Assembly: GCF_003634935.1 (NCBI RefSeq)
Contig: NZ_RBXO01000001.1
Span: 682,001-746,000 of the forward strand
Direction: 5' to 3'
DNA length: 64,000 bases
Source: Saccharothrix australiensis
GTDB lineage: Bacteria > Actinomycetota > Actinomycetes > Mycobacteriales > Pseudonocardiaceae
Positions 2,974 to 41,724 of the stretch are shown piece by piece (the stretch's first letter is position 1; each line of letters begins with the position of its first letter). Both the position numbers and the translations under genes were made by a program. The notes beneath the pieces are model-generated. The model did no database searches. It saw only the letters and a program-made list of their open reading frames with translations, and was not told the origin of the DNA.

Positions 2974-2990
2974 GGCCCCATGCTCGCACG

Positions 2991-3437: not shown

Positions 3438-3499
3438 GGCCGCCAGCCTGGTCGGCGGTCGCGCGCCGGGCCGGCGGTCTTCGGACGTGGCGACCGGGC

Positions 3500-3531
3500 G
3501 CCTGGCAGGTCGGGTGCCTGGCAGGTCGGGT
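3500..3531. repeat. Perfect 16-bp tandem duplication
   Basis: The unit gcctggcaggtcgggt occurs twice head to tail (3500-3515 and 3516-3531). It lies immediately 3' of the MidA-like gene, in the gap before the DUF1203 gene. Confidence 0.85.
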
Positions 3532-3533
3532 GC

Positions 3534-4448: not shown

Positions 4449-4478
4449 CGGTCAAGTGTCCCTTTAAGGTTGCACACT

Positions 4479-5654
4479 GTGACCGCCTACCCTGCCCGCA
4501 AGCGCGCCAACCAGCGCCGCTGGACCGTCCTGCTGCCGGTCGTCGGCCTGATCGCGCTGGGCGTCTGCGGACTGGTGCTGTTGGCCCTGGGCACCAGCAA
4601 GATCGGCGCGGGGCCCATCCTGGTCGGCGCGGTGGCGGCGCTGGTGCCGGTCGCGGCGGTGCTGGGCGCGTTCCTGTGGGTGGACCGGTGGGAGCCGGAA
4701 CCGGCGAAGATCCTCTTGCTGGCGTTCGCCTGGGGCGCGTGCGGCGCGACCATCACCTCGCTGGTGTTCAACCAGACCGCGCACGTGCTGGGCGAGCTGA
4801 TCAACGACGGCGACGGGTCGACGTTCGCCGCCGTCGTGGGCGCGCCGATCGTGGAGGAGGCGACCAAGGCGGCGTTCGTGATCGCGCTGTTCCTGCGCCG
4901 CCGCGAGGAGTTCGACGGCGTGGTGGACGGCATCGTCTACGCGGGCGTCACGGCCGCCGGGTTCGCGTACACCGAGAACATCTACTACTTCGCGCGGGTG
5001 TTCGTCGACAGCGGGCTCGGCGACCTGTCCAGCGGCGTGGTGGCGCTGTTCATCCTGCGCGGCGTGCTGTCGCCGTTCGCGCACCCGCTGTTCACGGCCA
5101 TGACCGGCATCGGGATCGGCATCGCGTCCATGACCGCGAACCGGCGGGTCCGCGTGGTCGCGCCCGTCCTGGGCTACCTGGGCGCGGCCGGGCTGCACTC
5201 GCTGTGGAACTTCTCCACCACCGTGGGCACCGGGTCGACGTTCATCAACCTGTACTTCCTGATCATGGTGCCGGTGTTCGCCGGCACGGTCTGGCTGGTG
5301 GTCTGGCAGCGCCGCCGCGAGCAGCGGATCGTCGCGGGCCAGCTCCCGGAGATGGCCGCGCGCCGGTGGATCGCGTCCAGCGAGGTGACGCTGCTCGCGT
5401 CGTTGCAGGGCCGCCGGCGGTGGCGGCGGGCCGTGCGCCGCAAGGTCGGGGACCAGGCCGCGCGGGCCGTGGCCGGGTACCAGGTGGCCGCGACGGAACT
5501 GGCGTTCCTGCGGCACCGGATCGCGCTGGGCACCGCGGGGCACGAAGCCGACCGACGGCACGAGGTGCTCTTGGAAGCGCTCATCACCGCACGTCAGGCC
5601 GCTGTGGACGCACCCGGTGCGCTCAAGGCGGCGGGTGGTGTTCGTCGCAGTTGA
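4479..5654 (+). CDS. PrsW family intramembrane metalloprotease
   Basis: The 391-residue polytopic membrane protein has all four PrsW signatures: EE in APIVEEATKA, TENIYYF, FAHPLFT, and a final GLHSLWNF. In this family the glutamates and histidines are thought to form the metalloprotease centre, and PrsW of Bacillus cleaves an anti-sigma factor. No sigma/anti-sigma pair is next to it here, so the substrate is unknown. The C-terminal ~110 residues are cytoplasmic, basic and helical, and could regulate the enzyme. The GTG at 4479 is chosen because the hydrophobic domain starts about 20 residues later and the upstream frame is non-coding. Confidence 0.85.
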   Translation: MTAYPARKRANQRRWTVLLPVVGLIALGVCGLVLLALGTSKIGAGPILVGAVAALVPVAAVLGAFLWVDRWEPEPAKILLLAFAWGACGATITSLVFNQTAHVLGELINDGDGSTFAAVVGAPIVEEATKAAFVIALFLRRREEFDGVVDGIVYAGVTAAGFAYTENIYYFARVFVDSGLGDLSSGVVALFILRGVLSPFAHPLFTAMTGIGIGIASMTANRRVRVVAPVLGYLGAAGLHSLWNFSTTVGTGSTFINLYFLIMVPVFAGTVWLVVWQRRREQRIVAGQLPEMAARRWIASSEVTLLASLQGRRRWRRAVRRKVGDQAARAVAGYQVAATELAFLRHRIALGTAGHEADRRHEVLLEALITARQAAVDAPGALKAAGGVRRS

Positions 5655-5742
5655 CGGCTGGCGCGGCGAGCGCGGGATTACGCTCGCGCCCGTCGTCCGG
5701 TACCCGCCACGGGACTGGAACGCCATTGGAGGAGTACGTCGC

Positions 5743-6636
5743 ATGGACGCGACCCCCCGCCCCGCGCGGCTGGCCGTCGGAGTGATCTCGGCCGGTCGGG
5801 TGGGCTCGGTGCTCGGCGCCGCCCTCACCAGGGCGGGCCACGTCGTCGGATCGGTGTCGGCCGTGTCCCGCGCGTCGCTGCGGCGCGCGGAGGAGCTGCT
5901 GCCGGACGTGCCGGTGCTGCCGCCGCCGGAGGTCGCCGCCGCCGCCGACCTCGTGCTGCTGGCCGTGCCGGACGACGAGCTGGCCGGGCTGGTGCGCGGG
6001 CTCGTCGCCACCGGGTCGCTGCGGGCCGGGCAGATCGTGGTGCACACCAGCGGCGCGCAGGGCGTCGAGGTGCTCGCGCCCGCGGCGGACGTCGGCGCGC
6101 TGTGCGTCGCGCTGCACCCGGTGATGACGTTCACCGGCCGCGCCGAGGACGTCGAGCGGATGACCGCCTGCTCGGTCGGGGTGACCGCCGCCGACGGCGA
6201 CGACGCGGCGTGGCACGTCGGCGAGGCGCTCGTGGTGGAGATGTCCGCCGAGCCCGTGCGCGTGCCGGAAGCGGTCCGCCCGCTGTACCACGCGGCGCTG
6301 GCGCACGGCGCGAACCACCTGATCACCCTGGTCGCCGACTGCGCGGACCTGCTGCGCTCGGCGGGCATCGCCGACGCCGAGCGGGTGCTCGGGCCGCTGC
6401 TGTCAGCCGCCCTGGACAACGTGCTGCGGCACGGCGACCGCGCGCTGACCGGACCGGTCGCCCGCGGCGACGCCGGCACCGTCGCCAAGCACCTGCGCGT
6501 GCTCGCCGCCGAGGGGCCTGAGACGCTTGCCCCGTACCGAGTTCTCGCGCGCCGCACCGTCGACCGCGCACAGGCCGCCGGGCTGCTCAAGCCCGAACCG
6601 GCAGCCGACGTCCGCACCACCCTTGAGGACCGATGA
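5743..6636 (+). CDS. Rossmann-like and DUF2520 domain oxidoreductase
   Basis: The 297-residue product has an N-terminal NAD(P)-binding Rossmann fold ([17 protein letters not shown]; GxGxxG degenerate to SAGRVG) and a helical DUF2520 C-terminal half ([25 protein letters not shown]). It starts at an ATG behind a good Shine-Dalgarno (ttggaggag) and overlaps panC by 4 bp (ATGA). The co-operonic panC, panD and coaX suggest a role in pantothenate supply. The missing step would be ketopantoate reduction, normally done by PanE, and the fold fits a NADPH-dependent reductase. That assignment is inference. Confidence 0.85.
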
Positions 6637-7523
6637 CCAAGCCGCTCACCAAAGACGACTACGCGCCCGACGACGTCACGGTGCACCGTGACCCGGACCG
6701 GCTGCGGCGCGTGGTCCGCGCGCTGCGCGCCGCGGGTCGCAACATCGCGCTCGTGCCGACGATGGGCGCGCTGCACGCGGGCCACCGGAAGCTGATCCGG
6801 GAGGCGCACGTCATGCAGAACACCGTGGTCGTGGTGTCGATCTTCGTCAACCCGACGCAGTTCGGTCCGAACGAGGACTTCGCCGCCTACCCCAGGACGT
6901 TCGAGTCCGATGTGGACGTCTGCCGCGAGGAGCGGGTCGGCCTGGTGTTCGCGCCCGCGGCGGAGGACGTGTACCTGCCCGGCGCCACCGTGACGGTGTC
7001 GCCGGGGCCGCTGGGCGACGAGCTGGAGGGCGCGTCCCGGCCGGGGCACTTCGCGGGCGTGCTGACCGTGGTGTCGAAGCTGTTCAACATCGTCCAGCCC
7101 ACGTACGCGGTGTTCGGGGAGAAGGACTACCAGCAGCTCACGCTCATCCACCGGATGGCGCGCGACCTGAACTTCCCCGTGGACGTGGTCGGGGTGCCGA
7201 CGGTCCGCGAGGCGGACGGGTTGGCGCTGTCCTCCCGCAACCGCTACCTGTCGGAGGCCGAGCGCGCCGCCGCGACGGCGCTGTCCGCCGCCCTCGTCGC
7301 CGGCGCGCACGTGAGCGGGCAGGGCGCGGACGCGGTGCTGGGCGCGGCGTCCGCGACGCTGGCCGCCGAGCCCGCGGTCGACCTGGACTACCTGGAGTTG
7401 CGCGCCCCCGACCTCGGGCCCGCGCCGGAGAACGGCGACGCCCGGCTCCTGGTCGCCGCGCGCGTGGGCGCCACCCGATTGATCGACAACATCGCGGTGC
7501 TGCTCGGCACCGGCGACGAGTGA
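6633..7523 (+). CDS. panC: Pantothenate synthetase (pantoate--beta-alanine ligase)
   Basis: The 296-residue cytoplasmic enzyme joins pantoate and beta-alanine with ATP to give pantothenate. Visible hallmarks are [15 protein letters not shown] (HxGH nucleotide motif), [44 protein letters not shown] (KMSKS-like loop), and a C-terminal YLELRAPDL. Length is normal for the family. The start ATG overlaps the stop of the DUF2520 gene (ATGA), and panD follows after 11 bp, so the genes are translationally coupled. Confidence 0.96.
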
Positions 7524-7534
7524 GGGGAACCCCG

Positions 7535-8029
7535 ATGTTCCGCACCATGCTCAAGTCGAAGATCCACCGGGCCACGGTGACCCAGGCCGACCTGCACTAC
7601 GTGGGCTCGGTGACGGTGGACGAGGACCTGATGGACGCCGCCGACCTCCTCGCCGGCGAACAGGTCGCGATCGTGGACGTGACCAACGGGGCCCGGCTGG
7701 AGACCTACGTCATCCCCGGCGCGCGCGGCACCGGCGTGATCGGGATCAACGGCGCCGCGGCGCACCTCGTGCGGCCCGGCGACCTGGTGATCCTCATCGC
7801 GTACGGCCAGATGGACGACGCCGAGGCGCGGTCGTACGCGCCGAAGGTCGTGTTCGTGGACGCCGGGAACAAGGTCGTCGAGCTGGGGGTCGACCCGGCG
7901 CGCGCGCCCGAGGGCTCCGGGCTGGTGAGCGGCGCGGCGGTGGAGCCCGTCGCGGAGGCGGCGGAGACCACGGCGTCGGAGACCGAGGACGCCACGGCGC
8001 TGGACGCGCTGATCCAGGCCGAGAACTGA
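7535..8029 (+). CDS. panD: Aspartate 1-decarboxylase
   Basis: This pyruvoyl enzyme makes beta-alanine from aspartate for PanC. The N-terminus [16 protein letters not shown] and the self-processing site Gly24-Ser25 (HYVGSVTVD) are intact, as are [13 protein letters not shown] and [10 protein letters not shown]. The ATG at 7535 is preferred to an in-frame GTG at 7520 because all PanD proteins begin this way and tgagggga lies upstream. The protein has 164 residues; about 40 C-terminal residues (Ala/Glu-rich, acidic) extend beyond the core of about 120. Such tails occur in actinobacterial PanD. Confidence 0.96.
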
Positions 8030-8062
8030 GCGGGTGCCGCGCCGGGGCACCGCTTCCGCGGC

Positions 8063-8158
8063 GCGTCCCGACCACCGCGTCCCGACCACCGCGTCTTGGC
8101 CACCGGTCTTGGCCACCGGTCTTGGCCATCGAGTCTTGGCCATCGAGTCTTGGCCACC
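8063..8158. repeat. 13-14 bp tandem repeat, seven units
   Basis: Seven units follow one another: gcgtcccgaccacc twice, then gcgtcttggccacc, ggtcttggccacc, ggtcttggccatc, gagtcttggccatc and gagtcttggccacc. The array fills the gap between panD and coaX and ends about 25 bp before the coaX ribosome-binding site. It can be read through in frame with coaX, but the coaX start lies downstream. It looks like a small VNTR. Confidence 0.85.
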
Positions 8159-8197
8159 GCGTCCGGGATACTGCGTCCTGAACAGAGAGGGAAGTCC

Positions 8198-8983
8198 GTG
8201 CTGCTCGCCATCGACGTCGGCAACACCAACATCGTCCTGGGGTTGTACGACGGCACCGGGGACAAGGCCGCGCTCGTGCGCGACTGGCGGATGCGCACCG
8301 ACGCCCGGATGACCGCCGACGAGCTGGCCCTGACCATGCGCGGGCTGCTCGGCGAGTACGCGGACAAGATCACCGGCATCTCGGCGCTGTCCACGGTGCC
8401 CGCGGTGCTGCGCGAACTCCGGGTGATGCTGGGGCGCTACTACTCCACCGTGCCCAAGGTGCTGGTCGAGCCCGGCGTGCGCACCGGGGTCCCGCTGCTG
8501 GTGGACAACCCGAAGGAGGTGGGCTCGGACCGCGTGATCAACACGCTGGCGGCGCACCACCTCTACAGCACCGCGTGCGTGGTCGTGGACTTCGGCACCT
8601 CCACGAACCTGGACGTCATCTCCGCCAAGGGCGAGTTCCTCGGCGGCGCGCTCGCGCCGGGCATCGAGATCTCCGTGGACGCGCTGGCCGCCAGGGCCGC
8701 CCAGTTGCGGAAGGTCGAACTCGTCCGGCCCCGGTCGGTGATCGGGAAGAACACCGTCGAGTGCCTCCAGTCCGGCATCGTGTACGGGTTCGTGGGGCAG
8801 GTGGACGGGCTCGTGCGCCGGATCGTGGACGAGTTGCAGGTGACCGAGCCGGGGCCGGTGACGGTGATCGCGACGGGCGGGTTGGCACCGCTGGTGGTCA
8901 CGGAGTCGGCCGCGATCCAGGGGCACGTCCCGGACCTGACGCTGCTCGGGTTGAGGCTGGTGTTCGAGCGCAACATGCGGTGA
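8198..8983 (+). CDS. coaX: Type III pantothenate kinase
   Basis: The 261-residue enzyme phosphorylates pantothenate, the first committed step to CoA. Motifs are LLAIDVGNTNIVLGLYD (phosphate-binding, with the essential Asp), NPKEVGSDRVINTLAAH, VVVDFGTSTNLDV (ATP/Mg site) and GGALAPGIEIS. Type III kinases are ASKHA-fold proteins that are K+-dependent and not CoA-inhibited (family knowledge). The GTG at 8198 follows agagaggga, and the protein family starts right there; the upstream frame is only repeat sequence. It is the last gene of the pantothenate cluster. Confidence 0.95.
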   Translation: MLLAIDVGNTNIVLGLYDGTGDKAALVRDWRMRTDARMTADELALTMRGLLGEYADKITGISALSTVPAVLRELRVMLGRYYSTVPKVLVEPGVRTGVPLLVDNPKEVGSDRVINTLAAHHLYSTACVVVDFGTSTNLDVISAKGEFLGGALAPGIEISVDALAARAAQLRKVELVRPRSVIGKNTVECLQSGIVYGFVGQVDGLVRRIVDELQVTEPGPVTVIATGGLAPLVVTESAAIQGHVPDLTLLGLRLVFERNMR

Positions 8984-31029: not shown

Positions 31030-31998
31030 ATGACCGTCCGTAACGCGATGCTCGGCGCGGTCGCCGCCGTGACCGCCGCCGTCGCCCTCACCGCCTGCGG
31101 CGGCGACCCCGCCACGCCCGCGGCGGACGGCAGGATCAAGGTCGTCACCTCGACCAACGTGTGGGGGAGCGTGGTGCGGGCGGTCGGCGGCGACGCGGTC
31201 GACGTCACCGCGATCATCAACGACCCGTCGGGCGACCCGCACTCCTACAACAGCAAGCCGTCCGACGTGGCCGCGGTGAAGGACGCCCGGCTCGTCGTGT
31301 TCAACGGCGGCGGCTACGACGACTTCTTCGCCTCCCTGCTCACCGCCGAGACCGAGGGCGCGCGGAAGATCGAGGCGTTCCCGCTGTCGGGCAAGGCGTC
31401 CGACCACGAGGAGCCCAAGCACGAGGAGCCGGGGCACGAGGAGCCGGGGCACACCGGAGAGGCGCACGGCCACGACCACGGCGTCAACGAGCACGTCTGG
31501 TACGACCTCGGCACGGTGCGCAAGGTCGCCGACCAGGCCGCCGCCGACCTGGCGGGCATCGCGCCCGACAAGAAGGACGCGTTCACCGCGAACGCCGCCG
31601 AGTTCGGGCGGCAGCTCGACGAGCTGCACCGGCGGGTCGAGGGCGCGGCCAAGGGCGGGAAGGTCCTGGAGACCGAGCCGGTCGCGCACTACCTCCTCGA
31701 CGCCGCCGGCGCGCAGGACGCCACGCCCGAGACGTTCAGCGAGGCCGTGGAGGGCGAGACGGACATCCCCGCCGCCGCGCTCGCCGAGGTCACCCGACTG
31801 GTGGAACAGAAGCAGGTCGTGGCGGTCGTCCACAACGTGCAGACGGAGAACACCGCGGTCAAGCAGGTCGTGGAGAAGGCCCGGCAGACCGGTGTGCCCG
31901 TGGTGGAGGTCACCGAAACGCTGCCGGAGGGCGTCACGGGTTACCTTGACTGGATGACGAAGCAGGTGGACGCGCTGACGGGCGCGCTGCGCGGATGA
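31030..31998 (+). CDS. znuA: Zinc ABC transporter substrate-binding lipoprotein
   Basis: The 322-residue A-1 family protein has the lipobox LTACGG and metal-site histidines in NDPSGDPHSYNSKP, the GVNEHVWYDL region and EPVAHYLL. A His/Glu-rich acidic loop (about residues 119-153, with HEEP repeats and HGHDHG) is typical of zinc rather than manganese binders. The znuC- and znuB-like genes follow with overlapping codons. Regulation by Zur is suggested by the upstream dyad. Confidence 0.9.
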   Translation: MTVRNAMLGAVAAVTAAVALTACGGDPATPAADGRIKVVTSTNVWGSVVRAVGGDAVDVTAIINDPSGDPHSYNSKPSDVAAVKDARLVVFNGGGYDDFFASLLTAETEGARKIEAFPLSGKASDHEEPKHEEPGHEEPGHTGEAHGHDHGVNEHVWYDLGTVRKVADQAAADLAGIAPDKKDAFTANAAEFGRQLDELHRRVEGAAKGGKVLETEPVAHYLLDAAGAQDATPETFSEAVEGETDIPAAALAEVTRLVEQKQVVAVVHNVQTENTAVKQVVEKARQTGVPVVEVTETLPEGVTGYLDWMTKQVDALTGALRG

Positions 31999-32813
31999 CC
32001 GCACAGGTGACGGACACGCCCGTGCGCGGCGCCGTGGCGCTGCGCGGCGCACGGCTGTCCTATGGGGACCGGGTGCTGTGGGACGGGCTGGACCTCGACG
32101 TCGCGCCCGGCGAGTTCGTCGCCGTGCTCGGGCCCAACGGCTCGGGCAAGACCAGCCTCATGCGCGTCCTGCTCGGCCTCCAGCCGCTGTCGGCGGGCAC
32201 CGTGCACGTCGCCGGCGGGAACCGCCGCATCGGGTACGTGCCGCAGCAGCGCGCGGTGGACCCGTCGCTCACGCTGCGCGGCCGAGACCTGGTGGGCTTC
32301 GGCCTCGACGGGCACGGCTGGGGCCTGGGCTGGCGCAACCGGCGCACCCGCCGGGCCAGGGTGGACGAGGCGCTGGCCGCCGTGGGCGCGACCCGGTACG
32401 CCGACGAGCCGGTCGGCCTGCTGTCCGGCGGGGAGCAGCAGCGCCTGCGGGTGGCGCAGGCCCTGGTCGGCGACCCCGCCGTGCTGCTGTGCGACGAGCC
32501 GCTGCTGTCGCTCGACCTCGCGCACCAGCGGGTGGTCAGCGACCTGATCGACCGGCGGCGGCGCGCCGCGGGCACGGCGGTCCTGTTCGTGACCCACGAG
32601 ATCAACCCGATCCTGCCGCTGGTCGACCGGGTGCTGTACCTGGTGGACGGCCGGTTCCGGATCGGCGCCCCGGCCGAGGTGATGACCTCGGCGGTGCTGT
32701 CCGAGCTGTACCGCACGAACGTCGAGGTGGTCCGGGTGCGCGACCAGATCCACGTGGTCGGCGCGCAGCACGTGTGCGAGGACGAGCCGCACCACGTGGC
32801 GGATGAGGGCTGA
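31995..32813 (+). CDS. znuC: Zinc ABC transporter ATPase
   Basis: The 272-residue ATPase has Walker A GPNGSGKTS, Q-loop YVPQQRAV, signature LLSGGEQQRLRVAQA, Walker B VLLCDEPLLSLD and switch His FVTHE. It overlaps the znuA stop (ATGA) and the znuB start (TGATG). The C-terminal ~35 residues, with several His and a Cys, may contact metal (inference). Confidence 0.92.
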   Translation: MTAQVTDTPVRGAVALRGARLSYGDRVLWDGLDLDVAPGEFVAVLGPNGSGKTSLMRVLLGLQPLSAGTVHVAGGNRRIGYVPQQRAVDPSLTLRGRDLVGFGLDGHGWGLGWRNRRTRRARVDEALAAVGATRYADEPVGLLSGGEQQRLRVAQALVGDPAVLLCDEPLLSLDLAHQRVVSDLIDRRRRAAGTAVLFVTHEINPILPLVDRVLYLVDGRFRIGAPAEVMTSAVLSELYRTNVEVVRVRDQIHVVGAQHVCEDEPHHVADEG

Positions 32814-33652
32814 TGGAGAACTTCTTCGACCTGTCGCTGACCTTCGAGCTGCTCGGGTACGGGTTCGTCCGGCAGATGCTGATCGCGGGCGCGGTGCTCG
32901 CCGTGGTCGCGGGCCTGCTCGGGCCGCTGGTGGTGACCCGCAAGATGGCGTTCGCCGTGCACGGCACGTCCGAGCTGGCGTTCACCGGCGCGGCGGCGGC
33001 GCTGCTGGTCGGCGTCGGCGTCGGGTACGGCGCGCTGGCCGGCGCGGTCGTGGCGGCGCTGCTGCTGGGCCTGCTGTCGCGGCGCGACTCCGACCGCGAC
33101 TCGGTGATCGGCGCGATCCTGGCGTTCGGCCTCGGGCTGGGCGTGCTGTTCCTCTACCTCTACAAGGGACGGTCGGCGAACAAGTTCGGCCTCCTCACGG
33201 GCCAGATCGTCAGCGTCGGTTCCACGGACCTGTGGCTGCTGGTCGGCTCGTCGGTCGCCGTGCTGGCCGTGCTCGCGGTCATCTACCGGCCGCTGCACTT
33301 CGCCTCGGTCGACCCGGCGGTGGCGACGGCCCGCGGCGTCCCGGTCCGCGTGCTCTCGGTGGTCTTCGCGGTGCTGGTCGGCGTGGCGACGGCGCTGAGC
33401 GTGCAGGTCGTCGGCGCGCTGCTCGTGCTGTCCCTGATGATCACGCCCGCCGCCGCCGCGACCCGCGTGACGGCGTCGCCGGTCAAGGCGACCGTGCTGG
33501 CCGTGGTGTTCGCCGAGGCGGCGGTGCTGCTGGGCATCCTGCTGTCGCTCGCGCCGGGCGTGCCGGTGAGCGCGTTCGTCACGGCGGTGTCGTTCCTGAT
33601 ATACCTCGTGTGCCGAGCTTTCGGCCGTGCGCGGTCGCGCGCGGACGCCTGA
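32813..33652 (+). CDS. znuB: Zinc ABC transporter permease
   Basis: The 279-residue ABC-3 family permease has about eight predicted helices, with FVRQMLIAGAVLAVVAGLLGPLVVTRKMAF at the N-terminus and the RGVPVRVLSVVFAVLVG coupling region. It overlaps znuC by one base. A 9-bp-stem hairpin (ccaccaggt/acctggtgg, 33663-33689) follows and may end the operon. Confidence 0.93.
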   Translation: MENFFDLSLTFELLGYGFVRQMLIAGAVLAVVAGLLGPLVVTRKMAFAVHGTSELAFTGAAAALLVGVGVGYGALAGAVVAALLLGLLSRRDSDRDSVIGAILAFGLGLGVLFLYLYKGRSANKFGLLTGQIVSVGSTDLWLLVGSSVAVLAVLAVIYRPLHFASVDPAVATARGVPVRVLSVVFAVLVGVATALSVQVVGALLVLSLMITPAAAATRVTASPVKATVLAVVFAEAAVLLGILLSLAPGVPVSAFVTAVSFLIYLVCRAFGRARSRADA

Positions 33653-33806
33653 CACCGGCCGTCCACCAGGTGGGACGGCGACCTGGTGGCGCAGCGGCGC
33701 GCCCGCGGTCGGACTTGCGCAGGTCAGCGCCCGTGACCCGGTCGAACGGGGTGGCGTAACCGGCGCGTAACGGTCCGTTCGCGATCGGTGACCCAGACTG
33801 TGCCGC

Positions 33807-34541
33807 ATGAGCAGCGCACCGGAGCGGCGCCTGCGGGCCGACCGGGCGCGCCAGGCGGCCGACGTGATCCGCAGGCAGGTCGTCCAACGGTCCTACCCGG
33901 ACGGCGTCCTGCCCGACGAGCGGTTCCTCGCCGCCGAGTTCTCCGCGTCCCGCAACACCATCCGCGAAGCGCTGGCCCTGCTGCGGGAGGAGGGCCTGAT
34001 CGAGCGCGTGCCCGGCGTGGGCACCGTCGTGGTGACCGAGAAGTGCGTGCACGGCCTCGACCGGCTGATGGGCCTCGCCGAGACCCTGCACGAGCAGGGC
34101 GAGGTCACCAACGACATCCGCGCCGCCGGGCCGATCAGGCCGCCCTCGTCGGTCGCGCGGCGGCTCCGGCTCGCCGACGGCGAACCGGTGGTCTACGTCG
34201 AACGCCTGCGCCGGCTCGACGGCCTGCCGCTGTCGCTCGACCTGACCTACCTGCCGGTGGACGTCGGCGCGCCGCTGCTGGCGCAGGACCTGCGCAACCA
34301 CGACATCTTCTCGCTCATCGAGCAGACCTCCGGGCAGCGGCTCGGCGCCGCCGACGTGGCGCTGGAGGCGGTCAACGCCGACCTGCACTCCGCGACCGTG
34401 CTGGAGGTGCCCAGGGGCGCGGCGCTGCTGGTGGTGGAGCGGCTGAGCCACTTCGCCGACGGCCGCCCGGTCGACCTGGAGTTCATCCGGCTGCGCGGCG
34501 ACCGGTTGACGATGCGCGCGGTGCTGGATCGCCGCGACTGA
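33807..34541 (+). CDS. GntR/HutC family regulator
   Basis: The 244-residue regulator has a winged helix (VIRRQVVQRSYPDGVLPDERFLAAEFSASRNTIREAL) followed by a UTRA ligand-binding domain (ARRLRLADGEPVVYVERLRR, then VLEVPRGAALLVVERLSHF and VDLEFIRLRGDRL). It lies 61 bp upstream of and co-directional with the ferredoxin/ABC/flavoprotein operon, which it most likely controls. UTRA proteins bind sugars, amino acids or other small effectors; the effector here is unknown. Confidence 0.88.
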   Translation: MSSAPERRLRADRARQAADVIRRQVVQRSYPDGVLPDERFLAAEFSASRNTIREALALLREEGLIERVPGVGTVVVTEKCVHGLDRLMGLAETLHEQGEVTNDIRAAGPIRPPSSVARRLRLADGEPVVYVERLRRLDGLPLSLDLTYLPVDVGAPLLAQDLRNHDIFSLIEQTSGQRLGAADVALEAVNADLHSATVLEVPRGAALLVVERLSHFADGRPVDLEFIRLRGDRLTMRAVLDRRD

Positions 34542-34602
34542 CGTCTCGGCAGGCTCGGGCGCCCGAAGGCGGCGCGCCCACGAGAAGGGGAGCACACCCG
34601 TC

Positions 34603-34830
34603 ATGGCCCTGGTGAACCACCGCGTCGACGTGCCGGTGACGATCGACGAATCGCTCTGCGTGGCCGGCTGCCGGCTGTGCGTGGACATGTGCCCGCTGGA
34701 CTCGCTGGCCATCCACCCCGAGACCGGCAAGGCGCACATGCACGTGGACGAGTGCTGGTACTGCGGTCCGTGCGCCGCGCGGTGCCCGACCGGCGCGGTC
34801 CACATCAACATGCCCTATTTGCTGCGGTGA
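34603..34830 (+). CDS. 2x[4Fe-4S] ferredoxin, AprB-like
   Basis: The 75-residue protein has two four-cysteine clusters: CVAGCRLCVDMCP (C-x3-C-x2-C-x3-CP) and CWYCGPCAARCP (C-x2-C-x2-C-x3-CP). The first cluster has x3 between its first two cysteines instead of x2. This spacing and the small size resemble the ferredoxin core of APS reductase beta subunits. It is the first structural gene of an operon that ends in an AprA-like flavoprotein, so it is probably that protein's electron-transfer partner. Confidence 0.88.
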   Translation: MALVNHRVDVPVTIDESLCVAGCRLCVDMCPLDSLAIHPETGKAHMHVDECWYCGPCAARCPTGAVHINMPYLLR

Positions 34831-34844
34831 GAGGAGTTCCGGCG

Positions 34845-36185
34845 ATGCGCAAGCTCCTGGCCGTGGCGCTGCTCGCGGCCGTGTCGGTGCCGGCGTGCGG
34901 CACGGGCGGGGCGTCCGGCGACGCCGTGCCGGTCGTGATCGGGTACCAGTCCAAGACCATCAACACGGTGACCGCCGGAACCCTGTTGCGGGAGAAGGGT
35001 TTCCTCGAACGGAGGCTCGCGGGCCTGGGTGACCGCACCGGCCGCCGGTACGAGGTCGTCTGGCAGGACTACGACACCGGCGCGCCGATCACCGCGCAGA
35101 TGGTCGCGGGCAAGGTGGACATCGGGTCGATGGGGGACTACCCGTTGCTCATCAACGGCTCGCGCACCCGGCAGCGCGGCGGCGAGGGCAGCCGGATGGT
35201 GTCGGTCACCGGCTACAACGCGCGCGGCGCGCTGAACATGGTGGTGGTGCGGCCGGACTCGCCCGCGCGCACGCTCGCCGACCTGGCCGGGCGGAAGGTG
35301 TCCACGAGCGTCGGGTCCGCCGGGCACGGGACGCTGGTGCGGGCGTTGGGCGGCGTCCAGGTGACGGTGGAGAACCACCAGCCGTCGGTCGGCGCGTCGG
35401 CGTTGCAGGGCGGCGGGGTGGCGGCGCTGTCGCAGTTCGTGGCGTGGCCGGGGCAGCTCGTGTTCGCGGGGCAGGCCAAGGTGCTCTACGACGGGGCGGC
35501 CTTGGACTTCCCCACGCTGCACGGCGTCGTGGTGCGCGGGCCCTTCGCCGCGGCGCACCCGGACGTGCTGGCGGAGTTCCTGCGGGCGCAGCTCGACGCG
35601 ACGGAGTACCTGCACCGCGCCCCGTTGGAGGCCGCGGAGGTCGTGGCCCGCGTGACGGGCCTGCCGCCCGAGGTGGTCTACCTCTACAACGGACCGAACG
35701 GCATCGCGACGTTCGACCTGTCGCTGAAGTCCGTGCTGCGCGCGGCGTTGCGGGACGACGTGCCGCTGCTGCGCTCGATCGGCGACATCGAACCGCTCGA
35801 CGTCGACCGGTTCGTCGACGACGGACCGCTGCGGTCGGTGTTCGCCGGCACCGAGGACCTGGTCAATCCGGCGCGCGTGACCGGCGTCGACCCGGTGTGC
35901 GGCGTCGAGGTCGGCGACCCCGCCACGGCGGGCGAGGTGTGGTTCGAGGGCGAGGCGGGCACGCGCCCGGCGGCCACGCCGGACTGCCTGCTCCGGCAGG
36001 TCAAGCAGGCGGGCCGCGCGGTGCGGGCGGCGTACGTGCCGGACGCGGCGACGGGCACCCGGTGGTTCGCCGAGCACTCCTTCTGGGTGCGCGACGGCGA
36101 CCGGCTGCTCCCGTTCACGACGGAGGCCGCCGCGGCCGAGCGCGGTCCGGTGCTGTCCTACGAGCAGGCGTTGGCGGAGGCGTGA
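34845..36185 (+). CDS. SsuA/NMT1-type binding lipoprotein with NosL/YHS-like C-terminal domain
   Basis: Of the 446 residues, 1-18 form a lipoprotein signal (VPAC, Cys18) and about 24-335 an SsuA/NMT1-like binding domain (VVIGYQSKTINTVTAG, GKVDIGSMGDYPLL, VKYxxx-free). The last ~100 residues are different. DPVCGVEV (349-356), Cys381 in TPDCLLRQVKQAG, AAYVPDAATGTRWF, SFWVRDGDRLLPFTTEAAAAERGPVLSYEQAL together resemble NosL, the copper-binding accessory lipoprotein, and its YHS-like Cys motif. Such a fusion is unusual and hints that the ligand or partner enzyme involves metal. This reading is from memory of the families and should be tested. Confidence 0.75.
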   Translation: MRKLLAVALLAAVSVPACGTGGASGDAVPVVIGYQSKTINTVTAGTLLREKGFLERRLAGLGDRTGRRYEVVWQDYDTGAPITAQMVAGKVDIGSMGDYPLLINGSRTRQRGGEGSRMVSVTGYNARGALNMVVVRPDSPARTLADLAGRKVSTSVGSAGHGTLVRALGGVQVTVENHQPSVGASALQGGGVAALSQFVAWPGQLVFAGQAKVLYDGAALDFPTLHGVVVRGPFAAAHPDVLAEFLRAQLDATEYLHRAPLEAAEVVARVTGLPPEVVYLYNGPNGIATFDLSLKSVLRAALRDDVPLLRSIGDIEPLDVDRFVDDGPLRSVFAGTEDLVNPARVTGVDPVCGVEVGDPATAGEVWFEGEAGTRPAATPDCLLRQVKQAGRAVRAAYVPDAATGTRWFAEHSFWVRDGDRLLPFTTEAAAAERGPVLSYEQALAEA

Positions 36186-36958
36186 TGCCGGGTCGGTGGG
36201 TGCTGCGGGCGGTCTCGCTCGCGGCGGGACTGGCGCTGTGGCAGGTGTTGACGGCCACCGGCGCGCGGGTGTGGCTGCGGTTCGACCAGCTCCCGACCGT
36301 GGTGGAGGTGGCGGAGCGGTTCGCGCGGCAGGTGCGGCTGCCGGAGTACTACGAGGACCTCGCGAGCAGCCTGGCGCGGATCGGGTCCGGCTTCCTGCTC
36401 GCGGCCGTGCTCGGGACGGCGCTCGGCGTCGCGGTGGCGCGGTCCCGGCTGCTGGGCGACGTCCTGGGACCGGTGCTGGAGGTGGTGCGGCCGATACCGG
36501 CGATCGCGCTGGTGCCGATCGCGATCCTGCTGTTCCCGACCGACGAGCAGGGCATCGTGTTCATCACCTTCGTGGCCGCGTTCTTCCCGATCCTGGTCAG
36601 CACCCGGCACGCGGTGCGCGCGCTGCCGACGAGCTGGGAGGACGCGGTGCGCACGATGGGCGGCGGCCGGTGGCAGGTGCTGGTCAAGGTCGTGCTGCCG
36701 GGCACGCTGCCCGGCGTGTTCGGCGGCCTCTCGGTCGGCATGGGCGTGTCGTGGATCTGCGTCATCTCCGCGGAGATGATCTCCGGGCAGTTCGGCGTCG
36801 GCTACCGCACCTGGCAGGCGTACACGGTGGTGGACTACCCCGGCGTGATCGTCGGCATGGTCACCATCGGCCTGCTGGGCTGGCTCACGTCGGCCGCGGT
36901 GGAGCTGCTCGGCCGCCGCGCCACCCGGTGGCTGCCCCGGCGGGAGGCGCGGTCGTGA
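36185..36958 (+). CDS. SsuC/TauC-type ABC transporter permease
   Basis: The 257-residue BPD permease has six predicted helices and an EAA-like loop EDAVRTMGGGRWQVLVKVVLPGTLPGV, and belongs to the nitrate/sulfonate/taurine type. The helix PIPAIALVPIAILLF is highly characteristic. It overlaps the binding-protein gene (TGATG) and the ATPase gene (GTGA), so all three transporter parts are coupled. Confidence 0.92.
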   Translation: MPGRWVLRAVSLAAGLALWQVLTATGARVWLRFDQLPTVVEVAERFARQVRLPEYYEDLASSLARIGSGFLLAAVLGTALGVAVARSRLLGDVLGPVLEVVRPIPAIALVPIAILLFPTDEQGIVFITFVAAFFPILVSTRHAVRALPTSWEDAVRTMGGGRWQVLVKVVLPGTLPGVFGGLSVGMGVSWICVISAEMISGQFGVGYRTWQAYTVVDYPGVIVGMVTIGLLGWLTSAAVELLGRRATRWLPRREARS

Positions 36959-37617
36959 GCGTGCTGGTCGAGGGGCTGACCGCCGGGTACGGCCGGTCGC
37001 CGGTGCTGCGGGACCTGGACCTCCGGGTCGCCGACGGCGAGCTGCTGGTCGTGGCCGGGCCGTCCGGGTGCGGCAAGTCGACGCTGCTGCGGGTGATCGC
37101 GGGCCTGCTGCCCGCCACGTCGGGGCGGGTGCTGGTGGGCGGCGTGCCGGTGCGCGGCGCCTCGCGGGACCGGGCGGTGGTGTTCCAGGACGACGGGCTG
37201 CTGCCGTGGCGCAGCGCGCTGAAGAACGTGGAACTGCCGCTGGCGTTGCAGGGCGTGTCCACAGTGGAGCGACGGGAGCGGGCGCGCGGCTGGCTGGACC
37301 GGGTCGGGCTGGCCGGCTTCGAGCGGTACCTGCCGCGCGAGCTGTCCGGCGGGATGCGCCAGCGGGTGCAGCTCGCCCGTGCGCTCGCGCAGGGGCCCGA
37401 GGTGGTGTTGATGGACGAGCCGTTCGGCGCGCTGGACGCGCGGACCCGCTCGGCGATGCAGGGGCTGGTGGTCGAGGTGCTGCGGGAGACCGGGACGACG
37501 ACGATCTTCGTCACGCACGACGTGGACGAGGCGGTGCTGCTGGGCGACCGGGTGGTGGTGCTCGGCGCGGGCGAGGTCGACGTGCGGCGCGAGGCGATCC
37601 TGGAGGTGTTGGGATGA
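36955..37617 (+). CDS. SsuB/TauB-type ABC transporter ATPase
   Basis: The 220-residue ATPase has Walker A GPSGCGKST, Q-loop VFQDDGLLPWRSALKNV, signature LSGGMRQRVQLARA, Walker B VVLMDEPFGALDA and H-loop FVTHDVDEAV, the profile of nitrate/sulfonate importers. A GTG start overlaps the permease stop, and the stop overlaps the flavoprotein ATG. Confidence 0.93.
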   Translation: MSVLVEGLTAGYGRSPVLRDLDLRVADGELLVVAGPSGCGKSTLLRVIAGLLPATSGRVLVGGVPVRGASRDRAVVFQDDGLLPWRSALKNVELPLALQGVSTVERRERARGWLDRVGLAGFERYLPRELSGGMRQRVQLARALAQGPEVVLMDEPFGALDARTRSAMQGLVVEVLRETGTTTIFVTHDVDEAVLLGDRVVVLGAGEVDVRREAILEVLG

Positions 37618-40244
37618 TGGAGATCCCCCCGGTGGCACAACGGGTTCCGCTGTCCTGCGACGTGCTGGTGATCGGCGGCGGCACGGCCGGGTCGATGGCC
37701 GCCCTCACCGCCGCCGAGCACGGCCGGTCCGTGCTGCTGCTGGAGAAGGCGCACGTCCGGCACTCCGGCGCGCTGGCGATGGGCATGGACGGCGTCAACA
37801 ACGCCGTCATACCGGGCAAGGCGTCGCCCGCCGACTACGTCGCCGAGATCACGCGCGCCAACGACGGGATCGTGGACCAGCGGACCGTGCTCCAGACCGC
37901 GACCCGCGGGTACGCGATGGTGCGGCGGCTGGAGCGGTACGGCGTGAAGTTCGAGAAGGACGCGGCGGGGGAGTACCACGTCCGCCAGGTGCACCGGTCC
38001 GGCTCGTACGTGCTGCCGATGCCCGAGGGCAAGGACGTGAAGAAGGTGCTGTACCGGGTGCTGCGCGAGCGGTCCGTGCGGTCGCGCGTCCGGATCGAGA
38101 ACCGCGTGATGCCCGTGCGCGTGCTCGTGTCGGGCGGGCGCGCGGTCGGCGCGGCCGGGTTCAACACCCGCACCGGCGAGTTCGTGACGGTGTCGGCGGG
38201 CGCGGTGGTCCTCGCGACCGGCGCGTGCGGCCGGCTCGGCCTGCCCGCCAGCGGCTACCTCTACGGCACCTACGAGAACCCGACCAACGCGGGCGACGGC
38301 TACTCGATGGCCTACCACGCGGGCGCCGAGCTGTCCGGCATCGAGTGCTTCCAGGTCAACCCGCTGATCAAGGACTACAACGGACCCGCGTGCGCGTACG
38401 TGGGCAACCCGTTCGGCGCGTACCAGGTCAACGCGCTGGGCGAGCGGTTCGTGGACTGCGACTACTGGTCCGGGCAGATGATGGCCGAGGTGGCGGCGGA
38501 GATCGCGTCCGACCGCGGCCCGGTGTACCTGCGCACCACGCACCTGCCGGAGGAGTCCGTCGCGGCGCTGGAGAACATCCTGCACACCACGGAACGACCC
38601 ACGCGCGGGACGTTCCACAGCGGACGCGGCCACGACTACCGCACCCACGACGTCGAGATGCACATCTCCGAGATCGGGCTGTGCGGCGGGCACTCCGCGT
38701 CCGGCGTGTGGGTGGACGAGCACGCGCGGACGACCGTGCCCGGCCTGTACGCGGCGGGCGACCTCGCCTGCGTGCCGCACAACTACATGCTGGGCGCGTT
38801 CGTGTTCGGCGACCTGGCGGGCGCGGACGCCGCCGCCTCCGCCGTCGCGCCGGGCGAGCTGCCCGAGGACCAGGTCGCCGAGGCGCACGAGCTGGTCTAC
38901 CGCCCGCTGCGCAACCCGGACGGCCCGCCCCAGCCGCAGGTCGAGTACAAGCTGCGGCGGTTCGTGAACGACTACGTGGCCCCGCCCAAGACCGGGACGC
39001 GGCTGGAGCTGGCGCTGGAGGCGTTCGCGCGGATGTCGGGCGAGATCGCCGGGATGGGCGCGCGGACACCGCACGAGCTGATGCGGTGCGCGGAGGTGAC
39101 GTTCATCCGGGACTGCGCGGAGATGGCCGCCCACGCGTCCCTGACCCGCGCGGAGAGCCGGTGGGGCCTGTACCACGAACGGGTGGACTTGCCGGCGCGG
39201 GACGACGCCGAGTGGTTCTACCACCTCAACCTGCGCAAGGGCGCGTCCGGCGGGATGGAGTTCGTCAAGCGCCCGGTGGCCCCCTACCTGGTGCCGGTGG
39301 ACGGCCTCACGCCGCCCGCCGGCGAGGTCGAGGTGCTGGCCGGGCGGTCGGTGTCGGCGCCGCCCACCGCGGCGACGCCGGCGCGCGGACCGGTGGGCGG
39401 CGGGTCCGCCCGCCTGCTGGAGCTGCTGGCGCTGGCCGACGCGCAGCCCGACCTGGCGGCGATCGAGCCGCACCTGGCCGACCCGGACCCCGCCGTGCGG
39501 CGCGCGGCCGTCGCGCTGCTGACCGAGGTGGTGCCGCCCGGATTCGAGTTCGCGCTGGTCACGGCGATGGCGGACGAGGACGCGGAGGTGCGCGCGGCGG
39601 CGGGCGCCGGGCTGCGGGAGCTGGTCGAGGTCGTGCCGGCCGGTGCCGAGCTGCGCCGGGCCCTGGCCACGTCGCCGTCGCGGGCGGTGGCGCTGGAGGT
39701 GCTGTGGGCGCTGCGGCTCGGCGACGAGCCGACCTACGCCGCGGCCCTGGACGACCCGTCGCCGGCCGCGCGGCTGGCCGCGGTGCGCGGCCTGGTGGCG
39801 GTGCGGGCGGTCGACGCGCTCGCCAGGGCGGCGCGGGACCCGGAGCGCGAGGTGCGGGTGCGGGCGGCCGAGGGACTGGGCGGCCTGCGGGCCGGGCCGG
39901 ACGTGCTGGTCGAGCTGGCCGGCGACCCGGACGAGCTGGTCAGGGCGGCGGCGCTGGAGGCGGGCGCGGGGTTCCCGGAGCTGCGCGAGCCGGCCCGCGC
40001 GGCGCTGTCCGACCCGGCCTGGCGGGTGCGGGTGGGCGCGGTGTGGGCCGTGGGCGCGCCGGAACCGGTGGTGGGCTGCCTGGACGACGTCGACCTGGAC
40101 GTTAGGAAAGCCGCGGCGCGGGTACTCGCGCGGTGGGCCGATCGGCCCGAGGTCGCGGATGCGCTGGAACGGGCGCTGGATGACACGGACGCGGACGTGC
40201 GCGCCTACGCGCGCCAAGCCCTCCGCGCGGCCGGAGGGAGGTGA
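37614..40244 (+). CDS. AprA/fumarate-reductase-type flavoprotein with C-terminal HEAT repeats
   Basis: 876 residues. Residues 17-26 form the FAD-binding VLVIGGGTAG; HSGALAMGMDGVNN is like the AprA flavin region, and GLYAAGDLACVP is the second FAD motif. Where succinate dehydrogenases have QFHPT, this protein has QVNPLIKDYNGPACA (Asn249), closer to AprA, so it is not a simple fumarate reductase. The capping and helical regions run to about 570. Then Pro/Ala-rich linkers and roughly eight HEAT-like repeats (600-876; PDLAAIEPHLADPDPAVRRA...) follow. The operon gives it a two-cluster ferredoxin and a sulfonate-type importer. It probably oxidises or reduces a small imported (possibly sulfur) compound; the HEAT part may scaffold a partner. 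Substrate unknown. Confidence 0.82.
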   Translation: MMEIPPVAQRVPLSCDVLVIGGGTAGSMAALTAAEHGRSVLLLEKAHVRHSGALAMGMDGVNNAVIPGKASPADYVAEITRANDGIVDQRTVLQTATRGYAMVRRLERYGVKFEKDAAGEYHVRQVHRSGSYVLPMPEGKDVKKVLYRVLRERSVRSRVRIENRVMPVRVLVSGGRAVGAAGFNTRTGEFVTVSAGAVVLATGACGRLGLPASGYLYGTYENPTNAGDGYSMAYHAGAELSGIECFQVNPLIKDYNGPACAYVGNPFGAYQVNALGERFVDCDYWSGQMMAEVAAEIASDRGPVYLRTTHLPEESVAALENILHTTERPTRGTFHSGRGHDYRTHDVEMHISEIGLCGGHSASGVWVDEHARTTVPGLYAAGDLACVPHNYMLGAFVFGDLAGADAAASAVAPGELPEDQVAEAHELVYRPLRNPDGPPQPQVEYKLRRFVNDYVAPPKTGTRLELALEAFARMSGEIAGMGARTPHELMRCAEVTFIRDCAEMAAHASLTRAESRWGLYHERVDLPARDDAEWFYHLNLRKGASGGMEFVKRPVAPYLVPVDGLTPPAGEVEVLAGRSVSAPPTAATPARGPVGGGSARLLELLALADAQPDLAAIEPHLADPDPAVRRAAVALLTEVVPPGFEFALVTAMADEDAEVRAAAGAGLRELVEVVPAGAELRRALATSPSRAVALEVLWALRLGDEPTYAAALDDPSPAARLAAVRGLVAVRAVDALARAARDPEREVRVRAAEGLGGLRAGPDVLVELAGDPDELVRAAALEAGAGFPELREPARAALSDPAWRVRVGAVWAVGAPEPVVGCLDDVDLDVRKAAARVLARWADRPEVADALERALDDTDADVRAYARQALRAAGGR

Positions 40245-40266
40245 CCGGCCGCCCCGGCGCGGCCGC

Positions 40267-41724
40267 TCAGGCGGAGCGGGTCACCTCGGGCTCGTCGACG
40301 CGCGGCGCGGGCAGGCGGCGCGGGTGGAGGTCGATGCCGGCGACGCGGACCTGGTTGCGGCCGTTCTCCTTGGCCGTGTAGAGCGCCGCGTCGGCGCTGT
40401 GGTGCGCGGCCATCAGGCAGTCGCCGTTGTCCGGGACGACGGCCACGCCGATGGACGCCGAGATGGCCCGCACCTCCGGCCCGTCCTCGGTGAGCGGCAG
40501 GTTGCGCCCGCGCAGGGTTACGGTGTTGCGGTGCTTGTCGGTGGTCACGACGGACATCTCGGCGATGGCCTCCCGGACGCGCTCGGCGATCGCCGTGCCC
40601 TGGGTCAGGCCCGTGTCGGCCAGCACGACGACGAACTCCTCGCCGCCGTCGCGGCCCGCCACGTCGCCCGGCCGCAGCTTCTCCCGCAGGATGCGGCCCA
40701 CCTCGGCCAGCACCGCGTTTCCCGCCGGGTGGCCCCAGGTGTCGTTGATGCGCTTGAAGTGGTCCAGGTCGATCGCCAGCACCGCCACCGGCTGCCCCGC
40801 GTGCCGGCAGCGCTCGGTCAGCCTGTTCGCGTGCTCGCTGAAGCCGTTGGTGTTGAACAGGCCCGTCCGGTAGTCGGTGTGGGCGTCCTTGGTCAGCTGG
40901 AGGTGCGCCTTGTGCTGCTCCGCGACCAGCCGCTCCAGGTGCGCCTGGCGTTCCGACGCGCGGTGCAGCAAGGCGTTCACCAGGATCACCGGCACGGCCA
41001 GCAGCAGCGGCGCGACCCAGTGCGTGGCGACCAGCATCCCGAGCATCGCGCCGACGCCCAGCGTCGTCATCTCCAGCATGTTGTCGTTGCGGGAGCCCAG
41101 CGAGTCCACGAACCGGGTCTGCGGGTTGACGATCTTCAGCGCCACCGTCATCAGCAGCACCTGGACGAACCAGTACAGCGCCGCGACGACGACCAACATG
41201 GACAGCAGCGCCAAGTCCATCAGGAACTGACCCGAGGCCGCCAGGGACAGTCCGGAGAGGTGCACGGCGGCGTTCGCGAGCACCGTGCTCGCCACGATGT
41301 GGGCGGAGGTGAACACGAACCGGTACGGCTGCCGCCGGGCGATCGGCCACAGCACGATCCGCAACCACACGGCCACCAGCACGGCCATCGCCGCGGGCAG
41401 TACGATCGCCGCCGCGAAAGTCCAGACCGACGTGAGGTCGAAGTACGGACCGGCGGATTCGTCCCGGCGCGATTCCTCGGCCCGGCGCACGATCGTGAGG
41501 TGGACGGTGACGGCCAGCACGAGCGCGGCGAACCGGAACCACTCCGTGGTCGTGGTGGAACCGAGCGTGGGCAGCAGCCAAATGGCGGCGATCGCCACCG
41601 CCAGTTCGACGGAAAGGATGTACGCGATCGCGGTACGGCGCAAGGACCAAAGGTCCCAGTTCCGACTCAGACGCCACGTGACTGTCGCGGACGGCTCGTG
41701 GTCAGGCAAACTGTTCTTCACCAC
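40267..41724 (-). CDS. Membrane diguanylate cyclase (GGDEF)
   Basis: The 485-residue protein has an N-terminal membrane domain of about eight helices (residues 28-255, sensor type not recognised) and a C-terminal GGDEF domain. The catalytic motif is GGEEF (an active form). RPGD lies five residues before it, the I-site that gives product inhibition by c-di-GMP. IDLDHFKRINDTWGH and SIGVAVV are also as expected. It should make c-di-GMP from GTP. It is convergent with the flavoprotein operon, with 22 bp between stops. Confidence 0.93.
   Translation of the reverse strand: MVKNSLPDHEPSATVTWRLSRNWDLWSLRRTAIAYILSVELAVAIAAIWLLPTLGSTTTTEWFRFAALVLAVTVHLTIVRRAEESRRDESAGPYFDLTSVWTFAAAIVLPAAMAVLVAVWLRIVLWPIARRQPYRFVFTSAHIVASTVLANAAVHLSGLSLAASGQFLMDLALLSMLVVVAALYWFVQVLLMTVALKIVNPQTRFVDSLGSRNDNMLEMTTLGVGAMLGMLVATHWVAPLLLAVPVILVNALLHRASERQAHLERLVAEQHKAHLQLTKDAHTDYRTGLFNTNGFSEHANRLTERCRHAGQPVAVLAIDLDHFKRINDTWGHPAGNAVLAEVGRILREKLRPGDVAGRDGGEEFVVVLADTGLTQGTAIAERVREAIAEMSVVTTDKHRNTVTLRGRNLPLTEDGPEVRAISASIGVAVVPDNGDCLMAAHHSADAALYTAKENGRNQVRVAGIDLHPRRLPAPRVDEPEVTRSA

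Follow-up and report, generated by a model that had tools for sequence, protein, structure and literature searches.

An operon coupling an AprA-like flavoprotein and its ferredoxin to a sulfonate-type importer in Saccharothrix australiensis, with a putative role in sulfite release from organosulfur compounds

Reductases of the AprBA type pair an alpha subunit that binds flavin adenine dinucleotide (FAD) with a two-cluster partner. In adenosine 5′-phosphosulfate (APS) reductase, AprA contacts the sulfate through Asn74, Trp234, Arg265 and His398, and AprB carries the electron-transfer residue Trp48 (available sections of PMC2211403); the 3′-phosphoadenosine 5′-phosphosulfate (PAPS) reductase of the methanogen Methanothermococcus thermolithotrophicus (8a8o) combines the same FAD alpha fold with a small beta subunit that has two [4Fe-4S] clusters and the electron-transfer residue Trp42 (available sections of PMC10322725), and the roles of AprBA and PAPS reductase residues used below are taken from these two papers. 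A further pair is known from organosulfur metabolism: reviews describe asfRABC as needed for the use of arylsulfonates (PMC4267179, PMC10441942) and asfAB as coding for a reductase and a ferredoxin, with asfA mutants losing the use of aromatic sulfonates (PMC4267179). Here we describe an operon of six genes from the actinobacterium Saccharothrix australiensis (contig NZ_RBXO01000001.1), found in a stretch of 64,000 nt (positions 682,001–746,000 of the contig; hereafter the window, whose coordinates are used throughout), that codes for an AprA-like flavoprotein, a ferredoxin, a transporter of the SsuABC/TauABC type and a regulator. In its best-supported reading, which is putative and to which we give somewhat less than an even chance, the operon would import an organosulfur compound and free sulfite from it with electrons from the ferredoxin. 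A description of the cassette was not found in full-text searches of the open PMC literature, which omits most subscription papers.

All six genes were verified on the plus strand, at 33807–40244, by translation and profile searches. As originally predicted, they overlap or nearly overlap and have a UTRA regulator in front: the regulator and ferredoxin genes are separated by 61 bp and the ferredoxin and binding-protein genes by 14 bp, while the overlaps are of 1 bp between the binding-protein and permease genes and of 4 bp both between permease and ATPase and between ATPase and flavoprotein genes.

The flavoprotein gene (37614–40244, plus strand; 876 aa) contains an FAD core similar to AprA and PAPS reductase (37614–39308), with FAD_binding_2 and Succ_DH_flav_C domains, and a tail of HEAT repeats starting at about residue 600 (residues about 600–872, 39411–40229; PF13646, 1.8e-22). 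The protein scored 1500.6 bits against the NCBIfam family NF010374 (PRK13800; cut-off 1196), its residues 2–872 aligning with positions 1–897 of 898, and 855.4 bits against the HEAT-less family NF006131 (cut-off 587), so the family is already present in databases, where both entries are named as the flavoprotein subunit of fumarate reductase/succinate dehydrogenase. Its closest solved relative by sequence is nevertheless the alpha subunit of the methanogen PAPS reductase (8a8o_A, 197 bits, 4.3e-57), followed by AprA (99 bits, 2e-27), the aspartate oxidase NadB (73 bits) and SdhA (65 bits). The score against the curated AprA profile TIGR02061 was 124.9 bits, far under its cut-off of 641.75. A Foldseek search with the AlphaFold model (mean pLDDT 70.7, pTM 0.53) returned PAPS reductase and AprA at ranks 1–4, with chains of succinate dehydrogenase (SDH) and fumarate reductase close behind; since the cap and pocket are poorly modeled (pLDDT being mostly above 90 in the helical HEAT repeats), this result is taken as support only.

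Although the flavoprotein scores above both cut-offs, the names of the two families find no support in its residues. At the position of the QFHPT of SdhA it has QVNPLIKDYNGPACA, as had been noticed originally, and an alignment with two SdhA-like proteins from the same genome showed that Asn-Pro-Leu replaces His-Pro-Thr and that Arg is absent from both sites of what we take to be the two active-site Arg of SdhA and FrdA, the replaced His being presumably their catalytic one. We thus ruled out a fumarate reductase or SDH, and the database name appears unsupported by these residues. The proposal of an AprA-like enzyme, as opposed to an ordinary fumarate or succinate dehydrogenase, is therefore sustained by sequence kinship, by the absence of the catalytic residues of the latter and, weakly, by the fold search.

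Comparison of the pockets indicated both kept and changed positions. Counting by hand on the alignment with AprA (or, for His398, through that with PAPS reductase), Asn74 and His398 correspond to Asn62 and His360 of the window protein, Trp234 to Tyr220 and Arg265 to Leu251, while His446, Phe448 and Trp144 correspond to His389, Tyr391 and Tyr132. The seven residues of the window protein were invariant in 113 of 113 rows, comprising 93 actinobacterial sequences (L001, the window's own copy, among them) and 20 from plasmids. Two of the four AprA sulfate contacts, Asn62 and His360, are thus kept in every row, so the check for AprA pocket residues that the original prediction had proposed gave a divided answer, with Asn and His retained and the Arg and Trp replaced by an invariant Leu and an invariant Tyr. 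These two invariant replacements indicate that the chemistry is not simply that of APS, and a plain APS/PAPS reductase was rejected on these grounds. The pocket appears tightly held and AprA-like, with its substrate contacts changed.

The ferredoxin (34603–34830, plus strand; 75 aa; PF12838, 2.2e-10) has eight Cys, forming two [4Fe-4S] motifs, in 31 of 31 aligned rows; in 30 of 30 family rows, the first Cys of the second motif is immediately followed by a Trp, Trp52. It matched AprB and the beta subunit of PAPS reductase in phmmer searches, and the printed alignment ranges, being ranges only, put Trp52 at position 47 or 48 of AprB and at 42 or 43 of the beta subunit. The AprB-like partner proposed for the flavoprotein is consistent with this Trp and these matches, and an FAD alpha subunit with a two-cluster partner, as in AprBA-type reductases, is what the FAD domain and the eight Cys predict. 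In its relatives, in its partner and in two of the four named sulfate contacts, the enzyme thus looks AprA/PAPS-reductase-like. With respect to AprBA, the equivalents of Asn74 and His398 and the position of the AprB Trp are kept, whereas Trp234 and Arg265 are replaced, the profile score is far under the cut-off and the partner is shorter (75 aa versus 150–166 aa for AprB). PAPS reductase is the best match by both sequence and fold, but it retains the Arg of AprA where the window protein has Leu, and the window system adds a HEAT domain and is coupled to an importer; also, carriers of cassettes like that of the window are mostly aerobic bacteria, unlike the methanogen.

A scan with one genome per species identified at least 575 confirmed matching stretches, and we analyzed the best-scoring 80. 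The six genes were found in identical order and on one strand in 76 of these 80 loci from other genomes, and in the other four the absent genes fall past contig ends; the neighborhood survey suggested originally thus showed that the genes travel together. Of 396 actinobacterial genomes drawn evenly, with the own genome among them, 12 had the flavoprotein above the cut-off, in four of 237 genera. Among the 20 nearest genomes, 12 of which are of the same genus, four carried it, all of them from that genus. This patchy occurrence within the genus, together with the linkage of the genes, marks the cassette as an accessory unit that is kept intact. The carriers include Mycobacterium, Nocardia, Streptomyces, Nonomuraea and others; with the family also catalogued as NF010374, the claim that such an enzyme would be new in an aerobic actinobacterium was too strong. 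The operon is genuine, conserved as a unit across numerous soil bacteria, and misnamed in databases as a respiratory enzyme. No flanking gene was generally conserved around the best 80 loci, the commonest neighbor cluster (clusters being unannotated) occurring in 16, of which the 12 with names are mycobacterial. Judging by eye from the first residues, a transposase-like gene is inserted in the cassette of locus L042, and an insert of several genes between the ferredoxin and binding-protein genes of Antrihabitans (L065:2127–6914) includes an asparaginase-like gene and a second binding-protein gene.

The family extends to Pseudomonadota and Cyanobacteriota through plasmid copies. A tblastn search of plasmids gave 51 records, 50 of them listed, with many matches in Paraburkholderia, Rhizobium, Sinorhizobium, Mesorhizobium, Acinetobacter, Bradyrhizobium and cyanobacteria. 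The surroundings of 20 records were examined; two of these had no annotation in the stretch and one, from Tsukamurella, is the actinobacterial fused form. The pattern elsewhere is split, with a flavoprotein of 567–589 aa, a ferredoxin and a separate HEAT-repeat protein, ABC (ATP-binding cassette) transporter genes alongside in most cases and a regulator of the GntR or Crp/Fnr type; in the proteobacterial and cyanobacterial loci read, the HEAT part is a gene of its own. With the window proteins as queries, tblastn found the flavoprotein and the ferredoxin in 20 of the 20 loci, the permease in 19 (one weak), and the ATPase and the binding protein in 18 each (one of the latter partial). The separate HEAT protein of Rhizobium locus L100 matches positions 633–896 of NF010374 (2.5e-26), suggesting that the actinobacterial protein is a fusion of partners that are neighbors elsewhere. 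Accessory neighbors in the split loci include DUF971 or Mrp/NBP35 proteins, which we take to function in Fe-S assembly. A cluster from Methylobacterium radiotolerans (L116:17371–18502) includes FdxA and a ferredoxin-NADP reductase, which would constitute a ready supply of electrons from NADPH and points to the reductive direction; the locus of Acidithiobacillus caldus has FdxA and a large FAD oxidoreductase. Cyanobacterial copies L104, L109 and L111 adjoin a long gene annotated as a LysR substrate-binding domain protein (ca. 670 aa) and Mrp/NBP35.

The importer starts with a binding protein (34845–36185, plus strand) that is a lipoprotein by appearance, has an NMT1 domain and finds its best PDB match in SsuA (3.6e-12). 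With its AlphaFold model (pLDDT 90.8, pTM 0.88), Foldseek ranks 1–8 were all TauA/SsuA, a domain of the bicarbonate transporter CmpABCD was at rank 9 and the nitrate binder NrtA at rank 45; against the curated SsuA profile TIGR01728 it reached 107 bits, below the cut-off of 163.5. The permease (36185–36958, plus strand) is of the NtrB/SsuC/TauC type, and the best NCBIfam profile for the ATPase (36955–37617, plus strand; GTG start) is of the TauB type (PRK11248). A coupled sulfonate/nitrate-type importer had been predicted, and is present with a sulfonate-type binding fold. The similarity to SsuABC/TauABC thus comprises the fold of the binding protein and the ATPase, but the window binding protein lies under the curated SsuA cut-off and bears a NosL-like C-terminal tail of ca. 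90 residues (residues about 360–446, 35922–36182), which, like the recurrent upstream DNA motif treated below, was beyond the original prediction. This tail is a well-modeled domain that PF05573 matches in some homologs: the window protein itself gave no match, seven of 37 alignment members matched up to E 1 (best 0.0016), and so did five of 10 further binding proteins at E ≤0.1, one of them (L105, 2.9e-6) above the Pfam cut-off, with no match among the four sulfatase-linked and one glycosidase-linked binding proteins considered below. Only some members retain the two cysteines of the tail, which makes a fixed metal site unlikely. Import of organometal compounds (SAO) was considered because of this tail and of matches of the permease and ATPase to the SaoP and SaoA profiles, and was rejected; these matches are below cut-off, the cysteines are absent in several members, and no title among the papers listed concerned this cassette.

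Relatives of the importer also occur with a different enzyme. A search with the binding protein in the 396 actinobacterial genomes gave matches at 17 places, spread over 15 genomes; the flavoprotein adjoins 12 of them but not the other five, so the separate occurrence of the genes, named originally as an argument against their forming a system, holds for the transporter only. Three of the five flavoprotein-free places contain a GntR gene, a sulfatase, a SulP-like carrier and a related binding protein and permease; in two of them the stretch read also includes a formylglycine maturase, and in one an ATPase was recognized; another of the five, which is partial, is situated near a TauE gene, with no enzyme recognized. 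Likewise, plasmid loci from Gordonia amicalis (L118) and Paraburkholderia (L119) contain a sulfatase and a maturase, and SulP is present in L119, with none annotated in the L118 stretch. In total, relatives of the importer and regulator lie beside an S1-type sulfatase in five loci from two lineages, accompanied by the maturase in four and by SulP in four. The L147 enzyme is recognized by the Pfam Sulfatase profile and the L119 enzyme by its match to solved S1 sulfatases; the N-termini of the sulfatases from L118 and L119 contain a CTPTR motif, and no signal peptide could be discerned in them. In a tree of binding proteins, the sulfatase-linked protein of Paraburkholderia grouped with a flavoprotein-linked one of Variovorax (98/93) and the four actinobacterial sulfatase-linked proteins formed one clade (100/100), indicating that the enzyme partner changed at least twice. 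Sulfatases act on sulfate esters and, as a family, do not cleave C–S bonds; if the ligand stayed similar, the flavoprotein would likewise act on sulfate esters. This partner swap leads us to prefer S–O over C–S cleavage, and a sulfate ester (R-O-SO3-) is somewhat likelier as the ligand than a sulfonate. As a separate observation, an extra gene for DNA gyrase B adjoins the sulfatase or maturase gene in two loci (L118:2579–4516, L147:4394–6316), a pattern that would fit inhibition of gyrase by the imported sulfated compound or by its product.

Several observations weigh against sulfite release from an imported sulfo-compound. Two of the four named sulfate contacts of AprA are changed in all 113 rows, and the model of the flavoprotein is poor over the pocket, with pLDDT below 50 at residues 204–279 and 323–365. 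The top score of the permease is with the nitrate protein NtrB (139 bits), and some upstream motifs resemble, by eye, a nitrogen-regulator box (GTAAC-N6-GAAAC-like). Four of the five sulfatase-linked binding proteins are in a clade of their own, so their ligand may differ, and one importer relative (L150) lies beside a glycosidase and a sugar kinase. Finally, TauE/SafE-like genes, which point to the reductive direction, were found at seven of the 20 plasmid loci (Aquabacterium, three cyanobacteria, Rhizobium N324 and two Acinetobacter baumannii), whereas a profile derived from seven such proteins detected none across the 1.7 Mb of the 80 actinobacterial loci, so this sulfite clue holds outside Actinobacteria only; the 20 nearest genomes contain from zero to four such genes each. 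The two A. baumannii cases are discounted, because the genes a few kb from the cassette (L108:3–4463; a metallo-hydrolase, a phosphatase-like protein, a TSUP transporter and a homoserine dehydrogenase) match a sulfide-response operon of this species that contains the TauE/SafE-like (TSUP) gene, as given in excerpts of PMC7315123. In L150 itself (2491–8689), the importer family shares an operon with two sugar-related genes, for a melibiase/GH31-like glycosidase and for a galactokinase-like GHMP kinase, which hint at a sulfo-sugar or a sugar-linked ligand.

A possible, although unlikely, alternative is an Asf-like desulfonation of sulfonates (C–S cleavage), in which the pair would either deliver electrons for, or carry out, the desulfonation of imported aromatic or aliphatic sulfonates, a monooxygenase from another locus perhaps taking part. 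The need for the asfA/asfB reductase-ferredoxin pair in arylsulfonate use is a precedent (excerpts of PMC4267179 and PMC2864759), the binding protein is closest to SsuA/TauA, and genes for a monooxygenase and an SsuA-type transporter come after one plasmid copy. We examined Cupriavidus metallidurans CH34, where asfAB are Rmet_4334/5 and asfRAB is on the second replicon (PMC2864759, in part). This replicon has one flavoprotein-ferredoxin pair, at 927.9–929.8 kb; six TauD hits ordered against six tags available from PMC2864759 place Rmet_4334 near 923 kb, assuming that the TauD hit at 10 kb carries the highest tag, so the pair is probably asfAB, and its flavoprotein, of the same superfamily, adjoins the ferredoxin as in the window. 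Beside a flavoprotein hit near 895 kb no Cys-motif ferredoxin was found among the ORFs (open reading frames) picked. A third hit, near 793 kb, adjoins a Cys-rich protein, and we presume this pair to be TcuAB. Against an Asf-like role, the probable AsfA (Rmet_4334) reached only 56.2 bits with NF006131 (cut-off 587), its pocket residues differ, and the row of the probable AsfB lacks the Trp at the second-motif position; membership in AsfA was rejected accordingly. Both systems share a flavoprotein and a ferredoxin, with AsfA/AsfB serving organosulfur use and having ABC-transporter-like genes nearby, but they belong to separate sequence families, as far as the inferred identity of the CH34 pair allows, so that the window enzyme seems to represent the same kind of pairing, distinct from AsfA. 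Moreover, no neighbor gene is generally kept beside the actinobacterial cassette, the largest of the unannotated clusters covering 16 of 80 loci, and the sulfatases found beside importer relatives argue against C–S cleavage.

A nitrogen-bearing or other small anion (e.g., sulfamate, a nitro compound or a nitrate-like oxyanion), with the cassette serving nitrogen supply, is improbable, and bears on the regulation of the operon. The GntR/UTRA regulator gene (33807–34541, plus strand; PF07702, 5.9e-32; PF00392, 3.1e-15) is preceded by GGCGYAA in 67 of 77 loci, with 91 matches versus 2.75 in shuffles that keep base composition only. The longer, two-part motif, CAGGTCA-N25-TGGCGTAAC, has its single match in the own genome at 33720–33760 (plus strand), a reversed control also giving one; over 20 genomes there were 14 matches and 14 with the reversed control, and the motif lies ca. 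4 kb before the flavoprotein gene in two of four same-genus cassettes (own and G404). We thus rejected it as the mark of a regulon and consider it a candidate operator only, the control being equally common and the motif missing near the other two cassettes. Its second part in Pseudonocardiales reads by eye like a GlnR box, and such boxes in several upstream regions, the NtrB match of the permease and an Aquabacterium copy that adjoins an ammonium transporter and GlnK would fit a nitrogen role; by eye, however, no such boxes stand out in the copies from mycobacteria and nocardiae, the bicarbonate and nitrate binders rank under eight sulfonate-binder chains, and some neighbors in other phyla are sulfite- or sulfate-exporter-like.

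Least likely is an oxidative direction, or oxidation of an organic acid as in the superfamily with the importer merely supplying that acid, which the FAD_binding_2 and Succ_DH_flav_C domains, the database name and the proximity of SDH/fumarate reductase chains in the fold search would favor, but which is countered by the missing active-site His and two Arg of SdhA/FrdA, by nearest relatives that reduce PAPS or APS and by the ferredoxin-NADP reductase of one cluster.

No match to an RNA element was found with Rfam at E up to 0.1 in 33500–40500. Directly upstream, 31030–33652 appears by eye to code for a zinc-type ABC importer, with closely spaced genes for a His-rich binding lipoprotein, an ATPase and a permease, and the convergent gene after the operon (40267–41724, minus strand) for a GGDEF-type membrane protein.

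In the reading that we favor, sulfite release, the SsuA-like lipoprotein and the ABC transporter would bring in an organic sulfo-compound, most likely a sulfate ester and possibly a sulfonate. In the cytosol, electrons would pass from the ferredoxin, via its Trp, to the FAD of the flavoprotein, whose reduced N5 would attack the sulfur while Asn62 and His360 keep it in place; the organic moiety would depart, and the resulting flavin-sulfite adduct would free sulfite for assimilation. The asfAB reductase-ferredoxin pair is a precedent for this reading as well. The HEAT part may hold or assemble the complex and the GntR/UTRA protein may sense the ligand. We infer the substrate class, the direction and sulfite as the product, as well as any role of the HEAT part, the NosL-like tail, the regulator and the motif. 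The original interpretation stands as to the AprA-like enzyme, the AprB-like partner, the sulfonate-type importer and the linkage of the genes; plain APS chemistry is not supported, and novelty in an aerobic actinobacterium was too strong a claim. As a more specific and doubtful form of the same reading, the complex might be a reductive sulfatase, cleaving the S–O bond of imported sulfate esters by flavin N5-sulfite chemistry to give an alcohol and sulfite, in place of the hydrolytic formylglycine sulfatase that other bacteria have with a related importer.

A reductive sulfatase would mean that aerobic bacteria have turned the AprA chemistry of sulfate respiration to the scavenging of sulfur, and that sulfite is reached without the ATP cost of sulfate activation. 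More generally, if sulfite is freed from organic sulfur, a non-oxygenase route would be added to sulfur cycling in soil. The large family that includes the window protein, with its at least 575 stretches in the species scan, carries a name for which its active-site residues give no support; if our reading is true, it would link APS-reductase chemistry to aerobic nutrient scavenging and correct the annotation of a common family.

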